Shown: piece by piece, positions 4,210 through 16,471 of the stretch
How positions within the stretch are numbered: position 1 is the stretch's first letter
Layout: the number at the start of each line of letters is the position of its first letter
Virus record (IMG/VR): IMGVR_UViG_3300023179_000573
Coordinates: 1 to 21,713 of that record
DNA from: a virus
DNA: 21,713 nt
Strand: one strand, 5' to 3'
The notes under the pieces: generated by a model
The model's input: the letters and a program-made list of their open reading frames with translations, nothing else
What the model was told of the DNA's origin: nothing
Database searches by the model: none
Made by a program: the position numbers and the translations under genes

Positions 4210-6300
4210 TTACCTTTGCGACACGAGTTGCGCAATCGCGTTGCGATCAAGTTTCGTGTAAGTTTGCAACACTTCAACGATCTCTCGACCAGCTTGAATA
4301 CCGTTCGTGCCGATCCCAGTGTTGATAACGATGTTTGTACCACCGCCACCAGTTGAATCTGCACCACCAGATGAACCTCCAGGCGTCGGCACAGTTGGCA
4401 AAGCCGGAACCACGAGATTGGCTCGACCAGCGTTCTTCGCCGCTTCAGCCACTTTGGCGATCGCTTCGGCGAGATTCTCGTACGCTTCTTTCTCTCGATC
4501 TAGCGCGTCAGTCAAACGATCCGAAGCAGTTTCTTGTTGTTCTTTTGCTTTGTTGACCGCGTCAAGAAACACCATATAAGTAGCAGACCCGACCACCGCA
4601 CCACTGACCGCTTCGTTCAACAGATTCTGAGCCTTTGACAAGCCAGTAGTTGCTTCATACTGTGCGTCAGTCGCATCAGACACAGCCAACTTCGCTTGAG
4701 CCAAACTGATCTCGGCTTCTCGAATCATCTGCGGATTCGACTCAGGATCTGAACGAACATCGGCAAGTTTCTTCTCAGCATCACGAACAGCGAACACCGC
4801 TTCCTCAACTCGATACCCAGAGTTCTCTACACCGCGTTGAGCCTTCGCCAGTTCACGCTGGGCATCTTTGGCTTGTTGCGAATCTGCACCGTATCCGTTA
4901 ATTGCTTGAGTGAAGTTTTCTTGCGCGGTCGTTAGCGCAGTGTTGGCATCGTTCAAAGATTGTTGCGCCTGAACACTGCCCTTCTGCGCACTGGTGAACG
5001 CCTTCTGTGCAGAAGTGGAACCTTTCAACGCATCGGTGTACTTCTCAAACTTCTGTTTTGCTGTCTCAACAATCTTGGATGCACCACCTGCCTTGCTGCC
5101 GAGACTGGTAAGCGAGTTTGACCAGTCGTCTGTTGCTTCTTTGGCTTTCGGCAGAACTTTGTTACCTAACCTGTCAGTCTGGTCAATCAACGGCGAGATC
5201 TTGTTGCCTTGCAGATTCAACGCATTGCTGGTGCTGGTGACAGAGTTACGCAATCTGTCAAATGTTGAAGTGACATTGTTGGTTCGGTCAATCAGCATCT
5301 GCTCAACTGTGATGATTCCGTCGCCACCTGTAACTGTTGAAGCAATCAGTCTCAAAGTGTCAAGGAATGCGAACGCTGGTTTCAAGAAGTTCACGATCGC
5401 TTGTTCAAACTGAACGAATCCGAGAATGATTCGTTCAACACTGTCAATGACTGCGATCGAGACAGGACCCATCGCCGCAGCAAAGTATTTCACTGCACCG
5501 GTCAGACCTTCTTCTTTGAATCCGTCAACTGCGGCTTTCAATGCTGGAATGATTCGAGTTTGTAAGAACCCGACAATTTTCTCGAATGCTGGGAGCAACA
5601 AGAAGCCAACTGTTTCAACAACTTCACCGAATGATGTTTTAAGAATCTTGACCCGACCAGAGAACGTGTCGGCTGCCGTTGCGGCTGCACCACCGAACTG
5701 TTGCTCCAAAGTTCCAAGAATCGCACTAAAGTCTTTTGACTTCTTCGCACCTTCATCAAGCGGGATGCCGAGTCGAGTCAGTGCGCCAATGTTGCCGGTC
5801 GCCGCACGACCGAGACCTAAGGTCACTGACGTGAGGTCGCGTTGTGTGGCGGCTGAGATATCGAGCGCAAGATTGAACAGACGCTGAGATTTATCTAGAT
5901 CACCTGTAGCACGAGCAAGATTGCCGAACGCTGGTCGGAGTTCATCGTCGGCGATACCTGTCGCCAACATCGCCTTCTCAATGAATGCTTCGGTTGCTTG
6001 CACTTGTGCTGTCGTTGCACCAGCTGATCGGATCAACTGTGCTTCAAGACTTTTCTGTGATGCTTCGTCGGCGGCTGCCGCATAGACCGCGGCTGTCGCT
6101 GCACCCGCAACCGCTGTGACTGCACCGAGCGCGATTAGCGCACCCTTCTTTACAACATCAAACGCATTGCCCAATGAGTTGCCAACTGATTGAAGTTGAC
6201 CGATTGTGTCTTGACCTTCTCTGGCAAGTTTCTTGAACGCCGTGATTGCGCCGTCCGCGTTTCCAAGAATCTTTACAACGAATGTGCGTTCACCTGCCAT
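4210..6300 (-). CDS. Tail tape measure protein, 696 aa
   Basis: The longest tail gene lies just before the minor tail genes, as expected for a tape measure. The start is MAGERTFVVKILGNADGAI. A hydrophobic, Ala/Val-rich segment at residues 53-77 can insert in a membrane. This is followed by a helical region with LTSVTLGLGRAATGNIGALTRLG, typical of TP901-type tape measure cores, more hydrophobic segments around 270-330, and a long helical stretch (about 430-620) rich in Ala, Gln, Lys and Glu. A Gly/Ser-rich linker precedes a short conserved-looking C-terminal helix (ending AIAQLVSQR). By the usual relation of about 0.15 nm per residue the tail would be near 100 nm long, an estimate only. No clear Shine-Dalgarno precedes the ATG, which begins 16 nt after the preceding gene. 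Confidence 0.85.
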   Translation of the reverse strand: MAGERTFVVKILGNADGAITAFKKLAREGQDTIGQLQSVGNSLGNAFDVVKKGALIALGAVTAVAGAATAAVYAAAADEASQKSLEAQLIRSAGATTAQVQATEAFIEKAMLATGIADDELRPAFGNLARATGDLDKSQRLFNLALDISAATQRDLTSVTLGLGRAATGNIGALTRLGIPLDEGAKKSKDFSAILGTLEQQFGGAAATAADTFSGRVKILKTSFGEVVETVGFLLLPAFEKIVGFLQTRIIPALKAAVDGFKEEGLTGAVKYFAAAMGPVSIAVIDSVERIILGFVQFEQAIVNFLKPAFAFLDTLRLIASTVTGGDGIITVEQMLIDRTNNVTSTFDRLRNSVTSTSNALNLQGNKISPLIDQTDRLGNKVLPKAKEATDDWSNSLTSLGSKAGGASKIVETAKQKFEKYTDALKGSTSAQKAFTSAQKGSVQAQQSLNDANTALTTAQENFTQAINGYGADSQQAKDAQRELAKAQRGVENSGYRVEEAVFAVRDAEKKLADVRSDPESNPQMIREAEISLAQAKLAVSDATDAQYEATTGLSKAQNLLNEAVSGAVVGSATYMVFLDAVNKAKEQQETASDRLTDALDREKEAYENLAEAIAKVAEAAKNAGRANLVVPALPTVPTPGGSSGGADSTGGGGTNIVINTGIGTNGIQAGREIVEVLQTYTKLDRNAIAQLVSQR

Positions 6301-6316
6301 GGTGACGCAATTCTAC

Positions 6317-7030
6317 TCAGTTAACGGACATCCGTTTGCGCAACTCTGCCCACTCACGTTGCATGTCACGATGAATCTCTTGCTGTGTCATACCGTCATA
6401 TTGTGACAAGTCAACTGGTGCATCCCACCACTTCGGATCCTGCACAATTCGCGCCCACTTACCACTCCTAGTTTGTCGAGTTGAGCGAATGTTCGGAGTG
6501 TTGAAAGTGCGGGTCGGCGCAGCGATATCGGTGATGGTCGGGTCAATGAACCGCCAACCTGAGTGATGTGTGCGGAATGGTTGACCAGCCTCGTGTTGTG
6601 GCAGGTAGAAGATACGAGCAGGATCTTTCGTTGCTGGGTCGCCTTTGAGACGGAGACGAGCGTGTGTCTCATGCCAAACTTCCTCCCAGTTGTCAACCGG
6701 TACAGCCTGCTCGAATGGGATGACAACGTGCCAGTGAGGATTATCTTCACGATGCGACCAGGTTGTGTACGCGAAATGGATATACGATCCGATATCACAA
6801 TTCTCAAACGCTTCACCGTCAAGGTCGGCGACTAACGCCCAGATGTGCGACACGTTGCGATTGCCTCGGGTTGTGTGGTCACGATAGGTGACAGGCGAGT
6901 AGAGCGAACCGTCAGACTTCTTGTCGTGTTCTTCATGTTTGCCAAGCATTGAGGCAAACTGCATCCACGATTCGGCGATCGTCTTTGGATAGACAGATTT
7001 GACCGATGGGAACCCGACGACTTCAAACAT
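6317..7030 (-). CDS. Stand-alone primase-polymerase (AEP)-like protein, 237 aa
   Basis: The protein has the motif order of the archaeo-eukaryotic primase superfamily. There is a hydrophobic strand ending in two Asp (WALVADLDGE, D69 and D71), then YTTWSHREDNPHWHVVIPF with H99 and H101, then KDPARIFYLPQ (D136, R139). The spacing matches the N-terminal primase domain of phage and plasmid replication proteins, but the helicase that normally follows is absent, and the C-terminal 65 residues are charged and unmatched. I chose ATG 7030, which overlaps the end of the regulator gene by 8 nt and has GAGGCAGG upstream; a TTG at 7048 is possible. It sits between tail genes, far from any replication gene seen here. 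It may prime DNA, or be a repurposed or inactive domain; activity is not shown. Confidence 0.68.
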   Translation of the reverse strand: MFEVVGFPSVKSVYPKTIAESWMQFASMLGKHEEHDKKSDGSLYSPVTYRDHTTRGNRNVSHIWALVADLDGEAFENCDIGSYIHFAYTTWSHREDNPHWHVVIPFEQAVPVDNWEEVWHETHARLRLKGDPATKDPARIFYLPQHEAGQPFRTHHSGWRFIDPTITDIAAPTRTFNTPNIRSTRQTRSGKWARIVQDPKWWDAPVDLSQYDGMTQQEIHRDMQREWAELRKRMSVN

Positions 7031-7163
7031 TGTGCAGACCTGCCTCAATATATCGGCGAAGTAACTCTGACACGCTCACATCTTCACGCTTCGCTTGACG
7101 CTCAATCAGAGTCTTGACTTCTTGGTCAAGTCTGATCGTGATGGTTGGATATTTGATTGTCAT
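7023..7163 (-). CDS. Ribbon-helix-helix (CopG/Arc-type) DNA-binding protein, 46 aa
   Basis: This short gene encodes the classic ribbon-helix-helix layout. The strand PTITIRLD contributes the alternating side chains that contact the DNA groove. Helix A is QEVKTLIERQAKRE. The turn DVSVS leads into helix B (ELLRRYIEAGL). At 46 residues it is a complete single-domain protein that would bind as a dimer or higher oligomer. Its ATG overlaps the stop of the 60-aa gene (TGATG), and its stop overlaps the start of the primase-like gene, so all three are translated as one operon. Two direct repeats over the operon promoter are candidate operators, making autoregulation likely by inference. Confidence 0.82.
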   Translation of the reverse strand: MTIKYPTITIRLDQEVKTLIERQAKREDVSVSELLRRYIEAGLHNV

Positions 7164-7345
7164 CACATCACCACGATTGATTGGATGATTTCGTTGTCAA
7201 CAATCAGAAGGTTTGCGTAGTAGACCTTGGTTCCCTTTGGTCGTTGTACTGCTGCGAAGTGTGTCCAGCCTGTTGTGCGCATGCTTGGAGTGTGTTCTTT
7301 GATTTCGATAACTTTGAGTGTTTGGTTCTTGTGTTTGATTTGCAT
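7163..7345 (-). CDS. Hypothetical 60-aa protein, first gene of the inserted cassette
   Basis: I do not recognise this protein. It begins MQIKHKNQTLKVIEIKEHTP and has a beta-rich, mixed-charge composition with WTHFAAVQRPKG in the middle and a hydrophobic end (YYANLLIVDNEIIQSIVVM). The ATG at 7345 is chosen over a further upstream start because a full AAGGAGG lies 5 nt before it, the strongest ribosome-binding site in the neighbourhood. It is co-transcribed with the ribbon-helix-helix gene. It has no signal peptide. It could be a partner of the regulator or of the primase-like protein, but nothing in the sequence decides this. Confidence 0.7.
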   Translation of the reverse strand: MQIKHKNQTLKVIEIKEHTPSMRTTGWTHFAAVQRPKGTKVYYANLLIVDNEIIQSIVVM

Positions 7346-7360
7346 GACTACCTCCTTAGG

Positions 7361-7393
7361 TATGTAAGACAATCTAACAACTATGTAAGACAA
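7361..7393. promoter_or_regulatory. Two direct repeats spaced 21 bp, candidate operators
   Basis: The 12-bp word TATGTAAGACAA occurs exactly at 7361-7372 and 7382-7393. The start-to-start distance of 21 bp is two helical turns. One copy overlaps the -10 element and start site, the other fills the -35 side of the spacer. Ribbon-helix-helix repressors bind such phased direct repeats, and one is encoded by this operon. Binding is inferred. Confidence 0.55.
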
Positions 7394-7399
7394 ATGCAA
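7371..7399 (-). promoter_or_regulatory. Sigma70-like promoter of the RHH/primase-like cassette
   Basis: On the minus strand TTGCAT (7399-7394) and TAGATT (7376-7371) are separated by 17 nt, close to the vegetative consensus TTGACA and TATAAT. The predicted start would fall near 7364, giving a leader of about 20 nt before the AAGGAGG site at 7357-7351. The location directly upstream of the cassette, in an AT-rich gap after the gp10-like gene, supports it. Confidence 0.55.
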
Positions 7400-7401
7400 C
7401 T

Positions 7402-7441
7402 ATCTTTTGAAAGATTTTTTAAGCCTTATTCTGTAAGGCTT
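7402..7441. other. Two inverted repeats in the gap before the cassette promoter
   Basis: A perfect 8-bp inverted repeat (AAGCCTTA at 7421-7428, TAAGGCTT at 7434-7441, 5-nt loop) follows the stop of the gp10-like gene. An AT-rich 6-bp pair (ATCTTT, AAAGAT, 2-nt spacer) is at 7402-7415. The stronger hairpin has no T-run after it on either strand, so it is not a convincing intrinsic terminator. It may stabilise the 3' end of the upstream message. Confidence 0.45.
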
Positions 7442-7458
7442 TCAGCCGATTGCAAGCA

Positions 7459-8073
7459 TCAGATGTTCAGTTGTTCAATCACTTTGTCTAAGCCATCTAG
7501 GTATTCTTTGGCGATCGCGTTCTTGCGTTTGCGGACAGTCGGCCAGAAGAAGTAACCAGACTGACCTCGATGTCTCAAGAACTGTTTCGTCTTAGAAGTT
7601 GCGCCACCACCGAACTCTGCACCGAAGAAGATGTCACTCAACACAACCCTTTGGTTGCGACCTTTAATCTTCTTGCGGTCATTCTTGTTCACAGGTCTTG
7701 TGGTTGATCTGAATGGTTCGTTGCCACGAAGTTTGATTGTCGGCACATTGTCATTGTTCGCTCGAAGACCTTTGGCAACTTGGAGATATTGTCGCGCTCG
7801 ACCAGGTGAAGCTCCAGCGAGTCCGGCTTCAATCTTGACTCTGCCTTGTAGATCTTTGGCGATTGCGTATGCGACTTTGCGCATCTCCTTCTTGAAGAGA
7901 GGACTTGCCTTCTCGTATCGGCGCAAAGTTTCAAACAAGTCTTTGACGATGACCGTGTTGCCATTAGGCACCACACTGAATCCGAGATTCTGACCTTTGA
8001 GCATTCCACTGCCACGACCGACAGTTGAACCAGCATCACCTGGAAGATCTGGGAATGCCGAGAAGTATGCCAT
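7459..8073 (-). CDS. HK97 gp10-like head-tail joining (tail completion) protein, 204 aa
   Basis: After about 45 extra residues the protein follows the gp10-like plan: a helix (DLFETLRRYEKASPLFKKEM), then RKVAYAIAKDLQGRVK, a polar stretch with ARQYLQVAKGLRANNDNVP, and the typical end FFGAEFGG...TKQFLRHRG, GYFFWPTVRKRKN and a final helix. This family closes the neck between connector and tail. The ATG at 8073 overlaps the stop of the frameshifted chaperone as TGATG. It normally lies before the major tail gene; here it follows the chaperone. After it the tail order is interrupted by the cassette. Confidence 0.75.
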   Translation of the reverse strand: MAYFSAFPDLPGDAGSTVGRGSGMLKGQNLGFSVVPNGNTVIVKDLFETLRRYEKASPLFKKEMRKVAYAIAKDLQGRVKIEAGLAGASPGRARQYLQVAKGLRANNDNVPTIKLRGNEPFRSTTRPVNKNDRKKIKGRNQRVVLSDIFFGAEFGGGATSKTKQFLRHRGQSGYFFWPTVRKRKNAIAKEYLDGLDKVIEQLNI

Positions 8074-8491
8074 CAGTTGATCCTTTGCGGTGGGTTCATC
8101 TTGACACTCTTCCAGCGCAGATAGCCGAGCATCGTGTACAGCATTCTAGGTGATTCTTGCAGAAGTAAAGATGGAGCGATGTGAGTCTCACACGCCAGGT
8201 ATGCGATCAGCCAGTGGGCTGAGGATTCTCCAAAGGGACGATCACCGCAGAATCGGTTCCAACCTCCACGCTCTCGATTGTTTCAATCCATTCTTCAAAC
8301 TTCATCGCAGTATTCTTCGTGCGTTTCGTTGCGTGCCACGCCAACCATGCAAGGTCGGTGAGGCGTAGTTCTGTTTGAAAGTTTGCGACCGAACGATTCT
8401 TTTCTGTTTCGAATGCGATGAAGTCGGCAAACTGTGCAGACACTTTCGTTGTGACGGCGTCCAGCGTTGTTACTTCTAGATTGATTTTCAT
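8073..8491 (-). CDS. Tail assembly chaperone, long form (GT-type) by -1 frameshift, 139 aa
   Basis: Ribosomes that slip back one base on CCCTTTG (8237-8231) read 87 residues of the short form and then 52 residues in the -1 frame, beginning GESSAHWLIAYLACETHIAP and ending PPQRIN at a TGA at 8075-8073. The extension has no start codon or ribosome site of its own at its beginning and looks like the T part of other chaperones (HWLIAYL...ETHIAPSLL...MLYTMLGYLRW). In lambda-like phages both forms are needed in a fixed ratio, the long form recruiting the tail tube subunit. The product is inferred from the sequence, not measured. Confidence 0.82.
8207..8491 (-). CDS. Tail assembly chaperone, short form (G-type), 94 aa
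   Basis: Position between the major tail protein and the tape measure region, size and helical composition match the short tail assembly chaperone of siphoviruses. The protein begins MKINLEVTTLDAVTTKV, has FQTELRLTDLAWLAWHATKRT in the middle and ends PQPTG. The start is supported by AGGAGG 5 nt before ATG. It would coat the tape measure during tail assembly and does not stay in the virion. A slippery heptamer near its end makes a longer product in the -1 frame. The usual stop is at 8207-8209. Confidence 0.85.
   Translation of the reverse strand: MKINLEVTTLDAVTTKVSAQFADFIAFETEKNRSVANFQTELRLTDLAWLAWHATKRTKNTAMKFEEWIETIESVEVGTDSAVIVPLENPQPTG
8231..8237 (-). promoter_or_regulatory. CCCTTTG slippery site for -1 frameshift
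   Basis: The heptamer fits X XXY YYZ in the zero frame (C CCT TTG). It lies 24 nt before the zero-frame stop of the chaperone, and the -1 frame stays open for 52 codons beyond it. No other slippery heptamer is evident in the overlap. Confidence 0.8.
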
Positions 8492-10148: not shown

Positions 10149-10811
10149 TTACTTCAAGATCCGTGGTGGGAACTCTACTCCAGGCACAACTTCATGTTCA
10201 CGCAAGATTGCTCGCATCTGCTCACACTCAAGTTCGCCGTTCGCCTGCGGTGCAATCGAGTAGGAATCTGATCGCCGAATATGATCGCCACACGGATTGC
10301 CTCGGAACGCGACTTTGTAGCCAAGTTTCTTGATCTCCATCCACTGAATCCAATCATTCCAAACAACTTGTCGATATGGGATTGACCATAAAACTGACCT
10401 ACGAATCAAGATTCCGCCAAGCATTGGATTGTGAGATACATGAAGAATCTGATTGAAGCCTTCTTCGGATGCAGCCCAAACTTGTCCATCTTGCATCCAC
10501 GGATTACAAATAATCTTCACATCCTCACCAACATCGGTCAGACCGTCAAGCGCGTCAGGGAACCAAATGTCATCCATCCCGACTGGCATCACCCAGTCCG
10601 AGTTCGCTGCAAACATGGTGTCATTCCAACTATTCCATTTGTGATGCGGTTGAACAATTTCGTGCCAATGCTTCGGAAGATTCAACGGCACAGGTGAAGA
10701 CACAATCACCTCATCAGGTTCAGTGTTCAACTTCTCCATCTGTTCAATGAACTGTCCGCCGAACCGATCCCAGAAGTCACCCCAAACTGTGACACACACA
10801 GCGATGCTCAT
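10149..10811 (-). CDS. GT-A-like glycosyltransferase, 220 aa
   Basis: The protein starts MSIAVCVTVWGDFWDRF and keeps the order of family 2-like glycosyltransferases in shortened form. There is an initial strand, a helix (FIEQMEKLNTEPDEVIVS), then SDWVMPVGMDDIWFPDAL with an acidic pair D80-D81 that can bind the metal and sugar nucleotide. GGILIRRSVL, WNDWIQWMEIKKLGY and GDHIRRSDS follow in the acceptor part. No membrane helix is present, so it acts in the cytoplasm. It starts 1 nt after the previous glycosyltransferase stop. The donor and acceptor are not shown; a structural protein of the virion or a host glycan are both possible. Confidence 0.72.
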   Translation of the reverse strand: MSIAVCVTVWGDFWDRFGGQFIEQMEKLNTEPDEVIVSSPVPLNLPKHWHEIVQPHHKWNSWNDTMFAANSDWVMPVGMDDIWFPDALDGLTDVGEDVKIICNPWMQDGQVWAASEEGFNQILHVSHNPMLGGILIRRSVLWSIPYRQVVWNDWIQWMEIKKLGYKVAFRGNPCGDHIRRSDSYSIAPQANGELECEQMRAILREHEVVPGVEFPPRILK

Positions 10812-10812
10812 G

Positions 10813-11466
10813 TCAATCCCAACTCAGATCAAGTCGGCGTTGCAGATCCCATTGACCTGCATCAAGTCTCGCGTTGCGAAGTTTGAACAGTTCAAGATTT
10901 GATGCGAAAGTTTGCGCGTTCTTACCTTGCAACGCCACATCGGACAGAAGTGTTGACGAGTTGTCGTGCATGATGATGTCTTGTGACTTGCGAATAGTTT
11001 TGCCCATCCGCACAGCGCGACGCTCATAATCGTTGTCTTCAAAGTATGCGGGATGGAATGCTTCGCAGAACAGTCCGACATCTTTCACAACTTCAGATCC
11101 GATCCACGCGCAAGCCCACTCTGGTGAACCAGTGAGATGAATCTCATCTCGGTCACATCCATTCCAGAACTGTTCAAGTTTGTCTGGTAAGAACCAGGCG
11201 TCCGAGTTGAGAAGAATCCAACCCGATGCGAACGGTGTCATCTTGATACCAAGATTCCACGATGTCGCCACACCAAGATTGCTAGGCATGTCCATAATGT
11301 AGGTCTTGCCGTGACGACTATGTCGTGGCATCATCAAACAGTCCTGCTCGATCTTGCCTCCGTTGTCGATGATGATGATCTTCTCGACTGGGAAGTCAAG
11401 CGAATCTATGCACCGTTCGAGAAGGTCGTATCGGTTGAGGACTGGGATGATTACGACCGGCACCAT
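10813..11466 (-). CDS. GT2-type (GT-A) glycosyltransferase, 217 aa
   Basis: The N-terminus VPVVIIPVLNRYDLLERCID is the standard nucleotide-binding start of GT2 enzymes, followed by IIIDNGG. NLGVATSWNLGI precedes the LLNSDAWF site (N87, S88, D89), the local form of the DxD metal motif. The acidic pair in YFEDNDYERR (E143-D144) could supply the catalytic base. The start at 11466 is preferred over 11496 because AAGGAG lies 8 nt before it and the extra N-terminal residues do not belong to the fold. It overlaps the upstream gene by 16 nt. Soluble, no membrane segment. Substrate unknown. Confidence 0.8.
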   Translation of the reverse strand: MVPVVIIPVLNRYDLLERCIDSLDFPVEKIIIIDNGGKIEQDCLMMPRHSRHGKTYIMDMPSNLGVATSWNLGIKMTPFASGWILLNSDAWFLPDKLEQFWNGCDRDEIHLTGSPEWACAWIGSEVVKDVGLFCEAFHPAYFEDNDYERRAVRMGKTIRKSQDIIMHDNSSTLLSDVALQGKNAQTFASNLELFKLRNARLDAGQWDLQRRLDLSWD

Positions 11467-12746
11467 GCGGACAACTCCTTCATTGTTGGCTTCCAATGCT
11501 GTTCAAATACTGTGTCGGCTCCATACCCTTGCGCATGGCTAATAGCCTGCTCAGAACGCCCTCTAGGCGCGTTATACGCCGACTTGAGAGCATTCACGAT
11601 GTCAGGCACTGACGGTGTGAAGAACCACGACTTCTGAGCCGCATCCCACCATGGCTGACCTTCAACCGTCCAGCCGTCGCCGACCAGCTCAGGTTGTGCG
11701 GTGAAGTTTGCGACAATCACTCGACATCCACACGCTTGCGCTTCGATCACTGGAATGCCGAACCCTTCACCCATCGAGCAAGCCAACAGAACATCGGACG
11801 CCGTGTACATCGCAGCCATCAAGTTCTGTGGCATACCGTGTCGATATGCGTACTGGTCAACGATCTTGTACTTGTCTGAACTGACTCCGCAAGCGTCAAG
11901 AAGTTGAATCAGATTGATACCAGACATCGCACCCATCGGCTCGGTGTAAAGATACAGAACCGCATCAGGATGATCTTTCGCAAAGATTGAATACGCAAGC
12001 AGATTCTCTGCCCATGCCTTTCGCGCAGGCTGACTGCCTTTGTTCGTTGCGACCATTGAGATGACGAATTTGTCTTCTTCCCATCCCATAAACTTTCGGC
12101 CAGTCATCTTGCCACCATCAGCCAACGCGACAGTCTCGGTCGGTTTGAACACTGGTTCAATCGCGTGAGGAACATAAAGATGATCGATGCCTGCGATGTT
12201 CAACATTCGTGAACCAAACTTCGACATCGCGATCGGTTTCACATTCTCACGCGCACACCACTCCAACACTTCTGGCGGTGCAGGCTGATGATCAATCGGA
12301 ACCCACGACGCAATGTTCTTCAACTCTTTCAACGAATCAGATTTCAACACCCAAACATCAAACAAAGTCATCAACAATGTTGGTGTTGAAAGATCTTGAC
12401 TAGCCCATTCCATTGTGTGCGCAACCACAACATCGTCGCTGTATGTCGCGAGTCCTTGTGGATACATTTTGAAACCATTCCAAGTCGATACCGAACCCGC
12501 AAGTCCGTACATCGCGTGGACTGCTATTTGGTGGTCTTCTTTCGCGAGCCTTTGGATGACTTGCGCGGTTTGCTGACCGTATCCTGTTGCAGCCCAAGGT
12601 GCGTTTGAATACCAGACGACTCTGAGTCGGTCGGGATTGGTTTGTCTGATATTTCCAAGTAGTGCGCTGCGCCCGCTCGGACTAATCGCTCCGCCAACGC
12701 TCCTGGCATTTCCACTGGTCTGCCTTTGACTATTACCGTTTCCCAC
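11451..12746 (-). CDS. GT4-type (GT-B) glycosyltransferase, 431 aa
   Basis: The first conserved strand is LRVVWYSNAPWAATGYG at residues 41-57, and the donor-binding half carries SMGEGFGIPVIEAQACG with the EX7E pair E327 and E335. Both are hallmarks of retaining GT-B enzymes that use nucleotide sugars. The 40 residues before the first strand look non-native and lie opposite a second good frame. The only in-frame start before the conserved part is the GTG at 12746, which is placed 5 nt after AGGAGG. It overlaps the ATG of the small gene by one base. No membrane helix is present. It is the first of three glycosyltransferases that probably act in sequence. Confidence 0.85.
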   Translation of the reverse strand: MGNGNSQRQTSGNARSVGGAISPSGRSALLGNIRQTNPDRLRVVWYSNAPWAATGYGQQTAQVIQRLAKEDHQIAVHAMYGLAGSVSTWNGFKMYPQGLATYSDDVVVAHTMEWASQDLSTPTLLMTLFDVWVLKSDSLKELKNIASWVPIDHQPAPPEVLEWCARENVKPIAMSKFGSRMLNIAGIDHLYVPHAIEPVFKPTETVALADGGKMTGRKFMGWEEDKFVISMVATNKGSQPARKAWAENLLAYSIFAKDHPDAVLYLYTEPMGAMSGINLIQLLDACGVSSDKYKIVDQYAYRHGMPQNLMAAMYTASDVLLACSMGEGFGIPVIEAQACGCRVIVANFTAQPELVGDGWTVEGQPWWDAAQKSWFFTPSVPDIVNALKSAYNAPRGRSEQAISHAQGYGADTVFEQHWKPTMKELSAWCRS

Positions 12747-14179: not shown

Positions 14180-14209
14180 ACTATAGACGAGAAGTTAGAA
14201 CGATTTCAA
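14180..14209 (-). promoter_or_regulatory. Candidate sigma70-like promoter for the major capsid gene
   Basis: TTGAAA (14209-14204) and TATAGT (14185-14180) are separated by 18 nt on the minus strand. The -35 element overlaps the last codons of the protease gene. A start near 14173 would give a leader of about 100 nt containing the two 19-bp repeats. A separate promoter would let capsid protein be made in excess of the protease. Confidence 0.5.
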
Positions 14210-16471
14210 TAGTTCAAGATGTTTGGCAAGAATGTTCACGGAGGCAGGAACTTGCGCTGGTTCGGCGCGAAGTTTGCTGACCGCGCTCGATAGCAGTTCG
14301 GCTGATTCGTCCGACAAAGTGTTGCCAGATTCGAGCATCGTGATCGCCTCGGCGAGCTTGTCTGCGTCAACACCTGTGCGTTTGGCAAGTAGGTCAAGAG
14401 AACGAACACTTGCCGAAGTTGCCTTGTAAGCAGGGAAGCCAGTCACGACCGACACTTCATGCAAACGAACCTGGCGTAGTTCGCGTGTCATGCCGTCATC
14501 TGACCATGAGTCTCCACCGGCAGGAACTGAGAAGCCAAACGACATCGAGTCAACATCGCCTCGTTGCATAAGAACACTCAGATCACGGCCGACAGTCGTG
14601 TCTGGCAGATCTGCGTTCACTAACAATCCTTTAGAATCTTCTTCAAGTCGTAAAGTCCTTGACCTTGTCGAAGCGAGAAGCATTGACGAATCATGGTTCA
14701 TGTACATTTTGATCGGCTGACGACTCTTCAAAGATTTCTTAAATGCACCTTGCGCGATTCGCTCGATGAATGGCAACGGTTCAGAATCAGAGTTGAACAC
14801 TGCTGCATAACCTGTGAATGACATTCCGTCACCTGTTGGACCTGCTCGCAGTTCAAACTCGTTGACTTGGATGCGACGTGTCTCGACCTTGTTGTCTTCC
14901 ATGCCTGGAATGTTAGCAAAGTATTCAGACTTGGTGCGATAGAAGTTGAACAATCCTCGTTCGGCTTTGATCGCGTTCGCTTTACGCTCGTACCAGTCTC
15001 GTGCTGGTTGAGGGTTCAACGGATTGATGCCCCACAAATAATGTGCTACAGCACCCGCACCAGGAAACTGATCGTTCGTTGAGTCCGAGTTCTTTGGTGC
15101 TTCTAGATCGACTGCGTGTCGTTGCGCCCATGCGTTTGATCGGATGACTTTGTCTTCCGTGATGTCGCCTCTTGCCAGATCTCGTGCTTCACGAACGGTT
15201 CGATCGACCAGCCCTTCACCCGCGAGTCCTTGACCGTAATAGTCCAATCCTTTGCGAGCAGCCGTGCGAATGTACACAGGTATCTCAAGAGATACTTGCC
15301 GATCTTCTTCAACCATGTCTTCATGTGGTTGCCAAGCGTTGCAATAGAATCCGCCGTTGACATAAGCATCCCATCTCTCGCAATACGCTTTGAGATTGTC
15401 ACCTTCGCCTTGAACATTTGATTCGTCGTAAAAGTGACAGTTCCCACATGCGCGACCTTCAGGAACATCAGGCGACAAGGCTGGTCGATAGTTGTCAGGA
15501 AGTGCGCGTTCAGCTTCGGAATGTTTCGGATGATCAACATGTAACAGATCGTTGTCGGTGATGTAGGCAGGATTCTGCGGATGACCAGTGCGACTCAAGT
15601 ACAGGAACGCATTCACACGCGCCATCGACCAAGCCGCTCGACTAACACCAGGACGATGCGATGTCGAATAGGCACCAGACCCGCGACGATAAACCGACTT
15701 CAACACACCAAGCGTCACACGAGTCCAAACTGGCCGATCACCTTCAGTCATCTTCTCGTTGTGATCGGTGACTTTGTTTCGCAACGCAGTTTCGGTCGCT
15801 TCATTGATTTCAATCCCACCTTGTTTGCCTGCTGCTGAACCGGCAGGATTCTTGTCGCTACCTGTGATCTGATCTTCTGGTGGTGCTGGTGCGCGTTGAG
15901 AAGGCACATCAAGCGAAACTTGACGCATAGATGGCATCTCGTCTGCTGTAATTGTTTTCGGATCTTTCGTTGCAATACCAACTGAAGCATATGCACGTCG
16001 AGCGTCAGCATCATTATCAATCGCCAACTTGACTGGATTCTCTTGAAGAATATCTTGAGCAGTCATTTTCTTGTATTCAGGAGTTGACATTGACATATCT
16101 TCATTAAATTGAATGTCATTGAATTGAACTCCAGCATCAGCAAGTTCTTTTATCGTTTTCGCTTCATCCGAATCTGGACGACCTGTCACGATATAAATGT
16201 AATAATCGGTATATAACAGATTTACATAGTCAATATTTTTTTGGATACCACGACTGCCAGAAAGCAGCGTTCCATCAATATCAACGATGATGACTTCATT
16301 GGCTCGAAAATTGCGTTCGCCACCTGGTTCCATGTCTTCGGCGATAGACACCGCGACCATCTGATCGATTGCGTCTTGTTTTGTTTCGTGACAGCCGATC
16401 ACTTCGCCGTCTTCTTTGATAGTTGCCCAACCAGAACAGTCTGGTGACTTGTCAGTAATGAAGTAAGGCAT
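14195..16471 (-). CDS. Multidomain fusion: HAD-like, DUF5872-like, Cys4 and prohead protease, 758 aa
   Basis: At least five parts can be seen. Residues 1-52 (MPYFITDKSPDCSGWATIKE onward) form a small domain common at the start of phage head proteins. Residues 58-165 are HAD-like: VDIDGT (D64, D66), VTGRP (T96) and AIDND (D152, D154), with K148 before it. Residues about 230-320 match DUF5872 (GAYSTSHRPGVSR, NAFLYL, DNDLL). A Cys4 site follows (C342, C345, C364, C377), then a helical domain (398-505) with AARKGL and YLWGI. Residues 538-690 are the HK97-type prohead protease, with H593 and the DSMSFGF serine. A free protease is about 200 residues, so this is much longer. The ATG overlaps the previous stop (TAATG). 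Probably self-cleaved during head maturation; the HAD role is unknown. Confidence 0.82.
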   Translation of the reverse strand: MPYFITDKSPDCSGWATIKEDGEVIGCHETKQDAIDQMVAVSIAEDMEPGGERNFRANEVIIVDIDGTLLSGSRGIQKNIDYVNLLYTDYYIYIVTGRPDSDEAKTIKELADAGVQFNDIQFNEDMSMSTPEYKKMTAQDILQENPVKLAIDNDADARRAYASVGIATKDPKTITADEMPSMRQVSLDVPSQRAPAPPEDQITGSDKNPAGSAAGKQGGIEINEATETALRNKVTDHNEKMTEGDRPVWTRVTLGVLKSVYRRGSGAYSTSHRPGVSRAAWSMARVNAFLYLSRTGHPQNPAYITDNDLLHVDHPKHSEAERALPDNYRPALSPDVPEGRACGNCHFYDESNVQGEGDNLKAYCERWDAYVNGGFYCNAWQPHEDMVEEDRQVSLEIPVYIRTAARKGLDYYGQGLAGEGLVDRTVREARDLARGDITEDKVIRSNAWAQRHAVDLEAPKNSDSTNDQFPGAGAVAHYLWGINPLNPQPARDWYERKANAIKAERGLFNFYRTKSEYFANIPGMEDNKVETRRIQVNEFELRAGPTGDGMSFTGYAAVFNSDSEPLPFIERIAQGAFKKSLKSRQPIKMYMNHDSSMLLASTRSRTLRLEEDSKGLLVNADLPDTTVGRDLSVLMQRGDVDSMSFGFSVPAGGDSWSDDGMTRELRQVRLHEVSVVTGFPAYKATSASVRSLDLLAKRTGVDADKLAEAITMLESGNTLSDESAELLSSAVSKLRAEPAQVPASVNILAKHLELLKSF

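Follow-up and report, generated by a model that had tools for sequence, protein, structure and literature searches.

A predicted AEP primase/polymerase gene housed in the tail block of two phage clades, and the optional ribbon-helix-helix cassette ahead of it

Herein, we report that a gene for a predicted AEP primase/polymerase domain has a fixed place among the tail genes in at least two phage clades, directly ahead of the tape measure gene. In some members of one clade, the short leader of this gene is replaced by a leader, one or two small ORFs and a ribbon-helix-helix (RHH) regulator, which together form a moron-like optional insert absent from other relatives at the same site. The most likely account, which we regard as reasonably probable, is that a self-repressing mobile cassette captured the region controlling the resident primase.

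Results

The window, meaning the whole stretch of DNA that was analyzed, comprises 21,713 nt of IMG/VR record IMGVR_UViG_3300023179_000573. On its minus strand, a 60-aa ORF, a 46-aa RHH ORF and a 237-aa primase-like ORF abut ahead of the tape measure gene. The features of this locus are as follows:

4210..6300, minus strand: tape measure protein gene, directly downstream of the AEP gene (PHROG 4197 tape measure, E = 7.2e-7)
6317..7030, minus strand: AEP-domain primase/polymerase-like gene, 237 aa (PHROG 9765, fold, motifs and synteny)
7023..7163, minus strand: predicted RHH (CopG/Arc-type) regulator gene, 46 aa, optional (Pfam RHH_1, E = 6.6e-8)
7163..7345, minus strand: small ORF U60 (60 aa), one of seven found as alternatives in the slot
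7351..7357, minus strand: Shine-Dalgarno sequence AAGGAGG of the U60 gene, read from the sequence
7364..7393, minus strand: putative RHH operator TTGTCTTAC-N12-TTGTCTTAC, direct repeats 21 nt apart, from a repeat search
7371..7399, minus strand: promoter-like site of the insert, TTGCAT at 7399-7394, 17 nt, TAGATT at 7376-7371 (coordinates checked)
7421..7441, minus strand: inverted repeat with perfect 8-bp arms, AAGCCTTA/TAAGGCTT, at the insert's left edge, without a T-run
7459..8073, minus strand: 204-aa gene, upstream of the AEP slot throughout and syntenic in both clades
8207-8491: gene in the chaperone position (PHROG 6889, unknown function), its chaperone identity given by position only

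A preliminary description of this DNA had placed the three short genes between the tail chaperone and the tape measure gene. The genes and their order held, with the correction that the 204-aa gene, which has no Pfam or NCBIfam match, intervenes on the upstream side and that the chaperone is named from its position. The overlapping ends were confirmed, at 1 nt between the 60-aa ORF and the RHH gene and 8 nt between the RHH gene and the AEP start, and so were the ribosome site (AAGGAGG at 7357-7351) and the AT-rich leader. This 113-nt leader has a GC content of 35%, compared with 49.7% in the window as a whole; among 2160 segments of equal size, only 27 had GC as low.

Relatives were collected through searches with the AEP, major tail protein, tape measure and neck protein, and they fell into two clades. 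AEPs of one clade were 79-99% identical to that of the window and those of the other 41-45%. The synteny set held 149 distinct full-length AEP genes (90 in clade 1 and 59 in clade 2); the counts give the number of distinct sequences and do not represent independent events, and the in-clade relatives are all metagenome contigs from one collection, none shown to be complete. The family of the 204-aa gene lay upstream of the AEP in 147/147 genes with enough upstream DNA, and the tape measure gene followed 13-30 nt after the AEP in 146/146 genes with enough downstream DNA. Among loci found by major tail protein, tape measure or neck, none within the clades lacked the AEP where the contig reached the slot. 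The primase had been described as part of an insert and as not a known tail part; this comparison of relatives instead shows it to be a fixed member of the tail block. In Pontimonas phage phiPsal1 and contigs near it, the neck, tail tube and tape measure genes stand in the same order and an AEP was not detectable. With a dN/dS of about 0.12, similar to that of the structural genes, the AEP evolves under purifying selection, and its distances track those of other tail genes about as well as those track one another. In the open-access literature, we found no report of an AEP gene with a fixed place ahead of the tape measure gene.

A separate Prim-Pol gene was found in 10/13 long contigs, in both clades. 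In the fully read relatives, this replicase is about 610 aa long and combines Prim-Pol and AAA_25 domains, the Prim-Pol (PF09250) match reaching E = 1.2e-42. The tail-block AEP is a predicted second primase beside this separate Prim-Pol/AAA_25 replicase. Scans of GTDB genomes gave no AEP match and one 60% terminase match in a MAG labelled Proteobacteria, which was too little to name a host.

The 237-aa protein matched PHROG 9765 DNA primase with E = 9e-12. Searches of Pfam, NCBIfam and PDB sequences gave nothing significant, the Prim-Pol (PF09250) Pfam model was without a match, and no helicase domain (VirE, D5 or RepA) was found by Pfam, PHROG and NCBIfam profile search. With tblastn, a divergent clade-2 relative was 25-32% identical to phage primases and primase-helicases over their N-terminal region. 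With hhalign, the AEP profile matched the primase of Streptococcus phage Javan405 (prob 95, E = 2.6e-8) and gave no match to the S-2L AEP sequence alone.

AF2 prediction on clade-1 sequences only reached a pLDDT of 33. Because clade 1 alone offered too little diversity, the prediction was rerun with 82 sequences from three groups, and the pLDDT was 74.8 (core about 85). The best PDB match in Foldseek was the AEP domain of cyanophage S-2L PrimPol (6zp9; E = 4.2e-5, prob 1.00, TM-score 0.38-0.47, 14% identity), and VirE- and NrS-1-type phage proteins were among the best matches in the viral library. Residues D69, D71, D131, K135, D136 and R139 were invariant in the alignment of the 82 sequences. 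Motif 1 (hDhD/E) is present as D69/D71, aligned with E85/D87 of S-2L, and the acidic residue of motif 3 is present as D131, aligned with S-2L D146 and followed by the basic residues K135 and R139. The corresponding S-2L residues, E85/D87 and D146, are the metal ligands of that PrimPol (PDB 6ZP9, PMC8065100). The motif-2 histidines H99/H101 are kept in the tail-block clades and are K/R in C48C1-type and VirE-type relatives. The motifs noticed earlier fall on an AEP fold, as both the profile search (PHROG primase) and the fold model (Foldseek 6zp9) suggest. The model and motifs point to an AEP primase/polymerase domain that looks catalytically competent and consists of the core only, lacking both PriCT and helicase domains; its connection with S-2L is based on the predicted fold and a weak alignment.

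The close known kin are the N-terminal AEP domains of VirE-type primase-helicases (Javan405 DNA primase, Corynebacterium phage Adelaide gp43 and Bacteroides phage F2), which share motif 1 (hDhD), the (G/F)D..T...R..Y.P block and the fold with the window AEP. Unlike these proteins, the window AEP stands alone without a helicase domain, sits in the tail block and not in a replication module, and has PHxH where they have PRxR. Stand-alone AEPs of about 300 aa occur in phage C48C1 and Vibrio phage henriette 12B8, 20-27% identical to the window AEP and with the invariant motif residues in common. These belong to replication modules and have a helicase gene nearby, whereas the window AEP lies between tail genes, and its C-terminal part is shorter. 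S-2L PrimPol, the sole possible polymerase of its phage, also contains PriCT and additional C-terminal domains.

In all clade-1 alleles without the insert, the gap ahead of the AEP is 52 bp. This leader mostly carries TTGCAT/A-16-TATCCT and GGAGG, and the clade-2 leader carries TTGACT-16-TACCCT and GGAGG in the same register when the two clades are aligned. The leader element scored 41-45 bits and occurred once per clade-1 contig scanned, with the next best site below 10, and it was missing from the window and from contig G003, both of which bear the insert. In both the 52-bp leader and the insert, the promoter-like site is a weak consensus match (about 7-8/12). Since both hexamer pairs are weak and strict promoter matches in the contigs were not above chance, we infer promoter function from conservation. 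A hairpin, AGGAT/ATCCT, was also considered in the 52-bp leader; across 41 sequences, it had only one compensatory change and was disrupted several times, and visual inspection showed it to be disrupted in clade 2. The promoter-like reading was preferred because this hairpin is poorly kept. With its own 52-bp leader, a conserved promoter-like element and a ribosome site, the AEP of phages without the insert can probably be made independently of the structural genes.

An RHH-bearing insert of 404-802 bp stands in place of this leader in some clade-1 phages. The call of an RHH regulator was upheld, the 46-aa protein scoring 32.7 bits against a cutoff of 20.5 for Pfam RHH_1. RHH genes accompany 19/90 clade-1 AEP genes and 0/59 clade-2 genes, and U60 accompanies 8/90 clade-1 genes. 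On the AEP tree, the RHH distribution requires at least 17 gains or losses, 12 of them forced by well-supported branches. Shuffled labels required a mean of 18.4 changes; the RHH needs no fewer, and the slot has therefore been exchanged very often. Each insert allele carries one or two of seven unrelated small ORFs. None of these was found elsewhere in the loci examined, none had a convincing family match (Pfam and PHROGs; for U60 also NCBIfam), and no RHH homologues were found in named phages. The earlier picture of an early or lysogenic moron operon thus survives in part: the leader, small ORF(s) and RHH behave as an insert, while the AEP is fixed. Lysogeny found no support, with no integrase recognized in an early region annotated in part. 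In relative G001, an early-region gene (L144, 7944-8174, minus strand) encodes a 76-aa protein that shares 28% identity with the RHH protein and may be a second regulator of this type.

An exact 12-nt direct repeat surrounds the -10 of the insert in the window, and the operator repeat pattern matched once in the window and not at all in 100 shuffles. Across inserts, the TTGTCTTAC repeats lie 21 nt apart around the -10, with a single mismatch in one allele; their spacing is constant and the 12-nt spacer is variable. The promoter first attributed to the cassette, TTGCAT-17-TAGATT in the window, is a weak match that the consensus scan did not list, but the promoter-like site is conserved among insert alleles and lies within the repeats. 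The self-regulation proposed for the cassette was upheld on this basis, the repression itself being what the repeats suggest. Most insert alleles have AAGGAGG or GAGGAGG as Shine-Dalgarno sequence. Sequence similar to the inverted repeat at 7421-7441 was present in other insert alleles; this hairpin is without a T-run, and there is no terminator after the RHH gene. In both alleles, the sequence leading into the AEP start is that within which the last RHH codons fall.

Discussion

We propose that, during infection, the AEP most likely works on phage DNA as an additional primase or a short-patch polymerase, because these phages also carry a full Prim-Pol/AAA_25 replicase. In the window phage, a mobile cassette of promoter, small ORF and RHH would have taken the place of the leader. 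The RHH protein probably binds the two TTGTCTTAC repeats bracketing the -10, and such binding would produce a burst of transcription followed by self-shutoff of the cassette. Primase output is probably tied to the RHH circuit by translational coupling, because the RHH stop overlaps the AEP start. The 46-aa protein resembles Arc/CopG-type repressors in its RHH_1 domain and in the two putative operator half-sites two helical turns apart; it differs from them in that the predicted regulator lies inside a late gene block and overlaps the primase gene. Against this account stands the unchanging position next to the tape measure gene, which is unusual for an ordinary replication gene.

It is possible, though we put it forward tentatively, that the optional cassette of small ORFs and RHH is an anti-defence locus like acr-aca, in which variable small inhibitors are followed by an autorepressor that limits them. 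Such a role for the cassette is compatible with the account given above for the primase. The cassette places seven unrelated small ORFs, in varied combinations, before one conserved regulator, its promoter-like site is bracketed by repeats, and its presence is scattered on the AEP tree. This layout is that of published acr-aca loci (PMC9410906), which likewise have variable small genes and then a regulator, have repeats in the promoter, and are optional in a phage gene block. However, published Aca proteins are HTH proteins whose targets are inverted repeats inside the core promoter (PMC9410906). The cassette regulator, in contrast, is of the RHH type, its promoter repeats are direct, and an inverted repeat is found only upstream, at 7421-7441. 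No small ORF of the cassette matches a known family or is a known Acr, and the operon continues into the resident primase. By analogy, the cassette resembles acr-aca in layout, not in membership.

The constant distance of 13-30 nt to the tape measure gene (146/146) would also fit a primase that is built into or ejected through the tail to prime or repair incoming phage DNA in the new host, its gene position reflecting late expression with the tape measure. The presence of a separate replicase agrees with such a role. We nevertheless consider it unlikely, since the gene has its own leader with a promoter-like element, which suggests separate expression, and its closest named relatives are replication enzymes. 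The combined form, in which an active tail-block AEP acts on the incoming genome in or through the tail and the mobile RHH cassette is a swappable control unit, is one we regard as quite unlikely.

We give little credence to the small ORF and RHH being a type II toxin-antitoxin pair that stabilizes the slot. The genes are short and overlapping, and the RHH resembles antitoxin N-termini (RelB_antitoxin, NCBIfam E = 1.4e-6, and CopG_antitoxin, both below cutoff). At 46 aa, however, it has no toxin-binding tail past the DNA-binding domain, its partner varies among seven unrelated ORFs, and the small ORFs are without a toxin family match in Pfam and PHROGs.

Equally doubtful is that the 237-aa protein has an RRM-type fold such as that of an HUH endonuclease, or is a catalysis-dead AEP serving as a DNA-binding or assembly factor. 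The HWH motif at 99-101, a weak Pfam match to REP_ORF2-G2P (E = 0.072) and the fixed seat beside the tape measure gene would suit this idea. On the other hand, D69-x-D71 and D131 are invariant in 82 sequences, and the fold search puts AEPs first and gives HUH structures negligible probability. That the three genes form a single moron operon placed between tail genes, as the overlapping genes, promoter-like leader and AT-rich start might suggest, is scarcely credible given that the AEP is at the slot in every relative of the two clades and only the leader, small ORF and RHH vary.

Phage gene-order rules do not explain why a second primase has been retained over long evolutionary time within a tail operon, as it has in well over 100 environmental phage contigs. 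Its retention suggests a function that benefits from the tail-block position or from separate timing. The slot upstream, with its fixed resident gene, conserved short leader and swapping cassette, is a place to seek new small phage effectors, such as anti-defence proteins. It also offers a natural case in which an insert may seize control of a resident enzyme.

In the window, the head maturation protease gene (14195-16471) encodes 758 aa, the first 170 residues of which match polynucleotide kinase/phosphoheptose isomerase-type PHROGs, and the gene encodes 616 aa in relatives G001 and G003. Between the major capsid and neck genes, at 10149-12746, lie three glycosyltransferase-like genes; the set varies among relatives, and phiPsal1 has glycosyltransferases in the same place. 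In L246, L248, L249 and L253, the neck gene is about 81% identical to that of the window, although identity is only 54-64% in the tail genes that follow, a pattern suggesting that head-neck modules were exchanged between the two clades.
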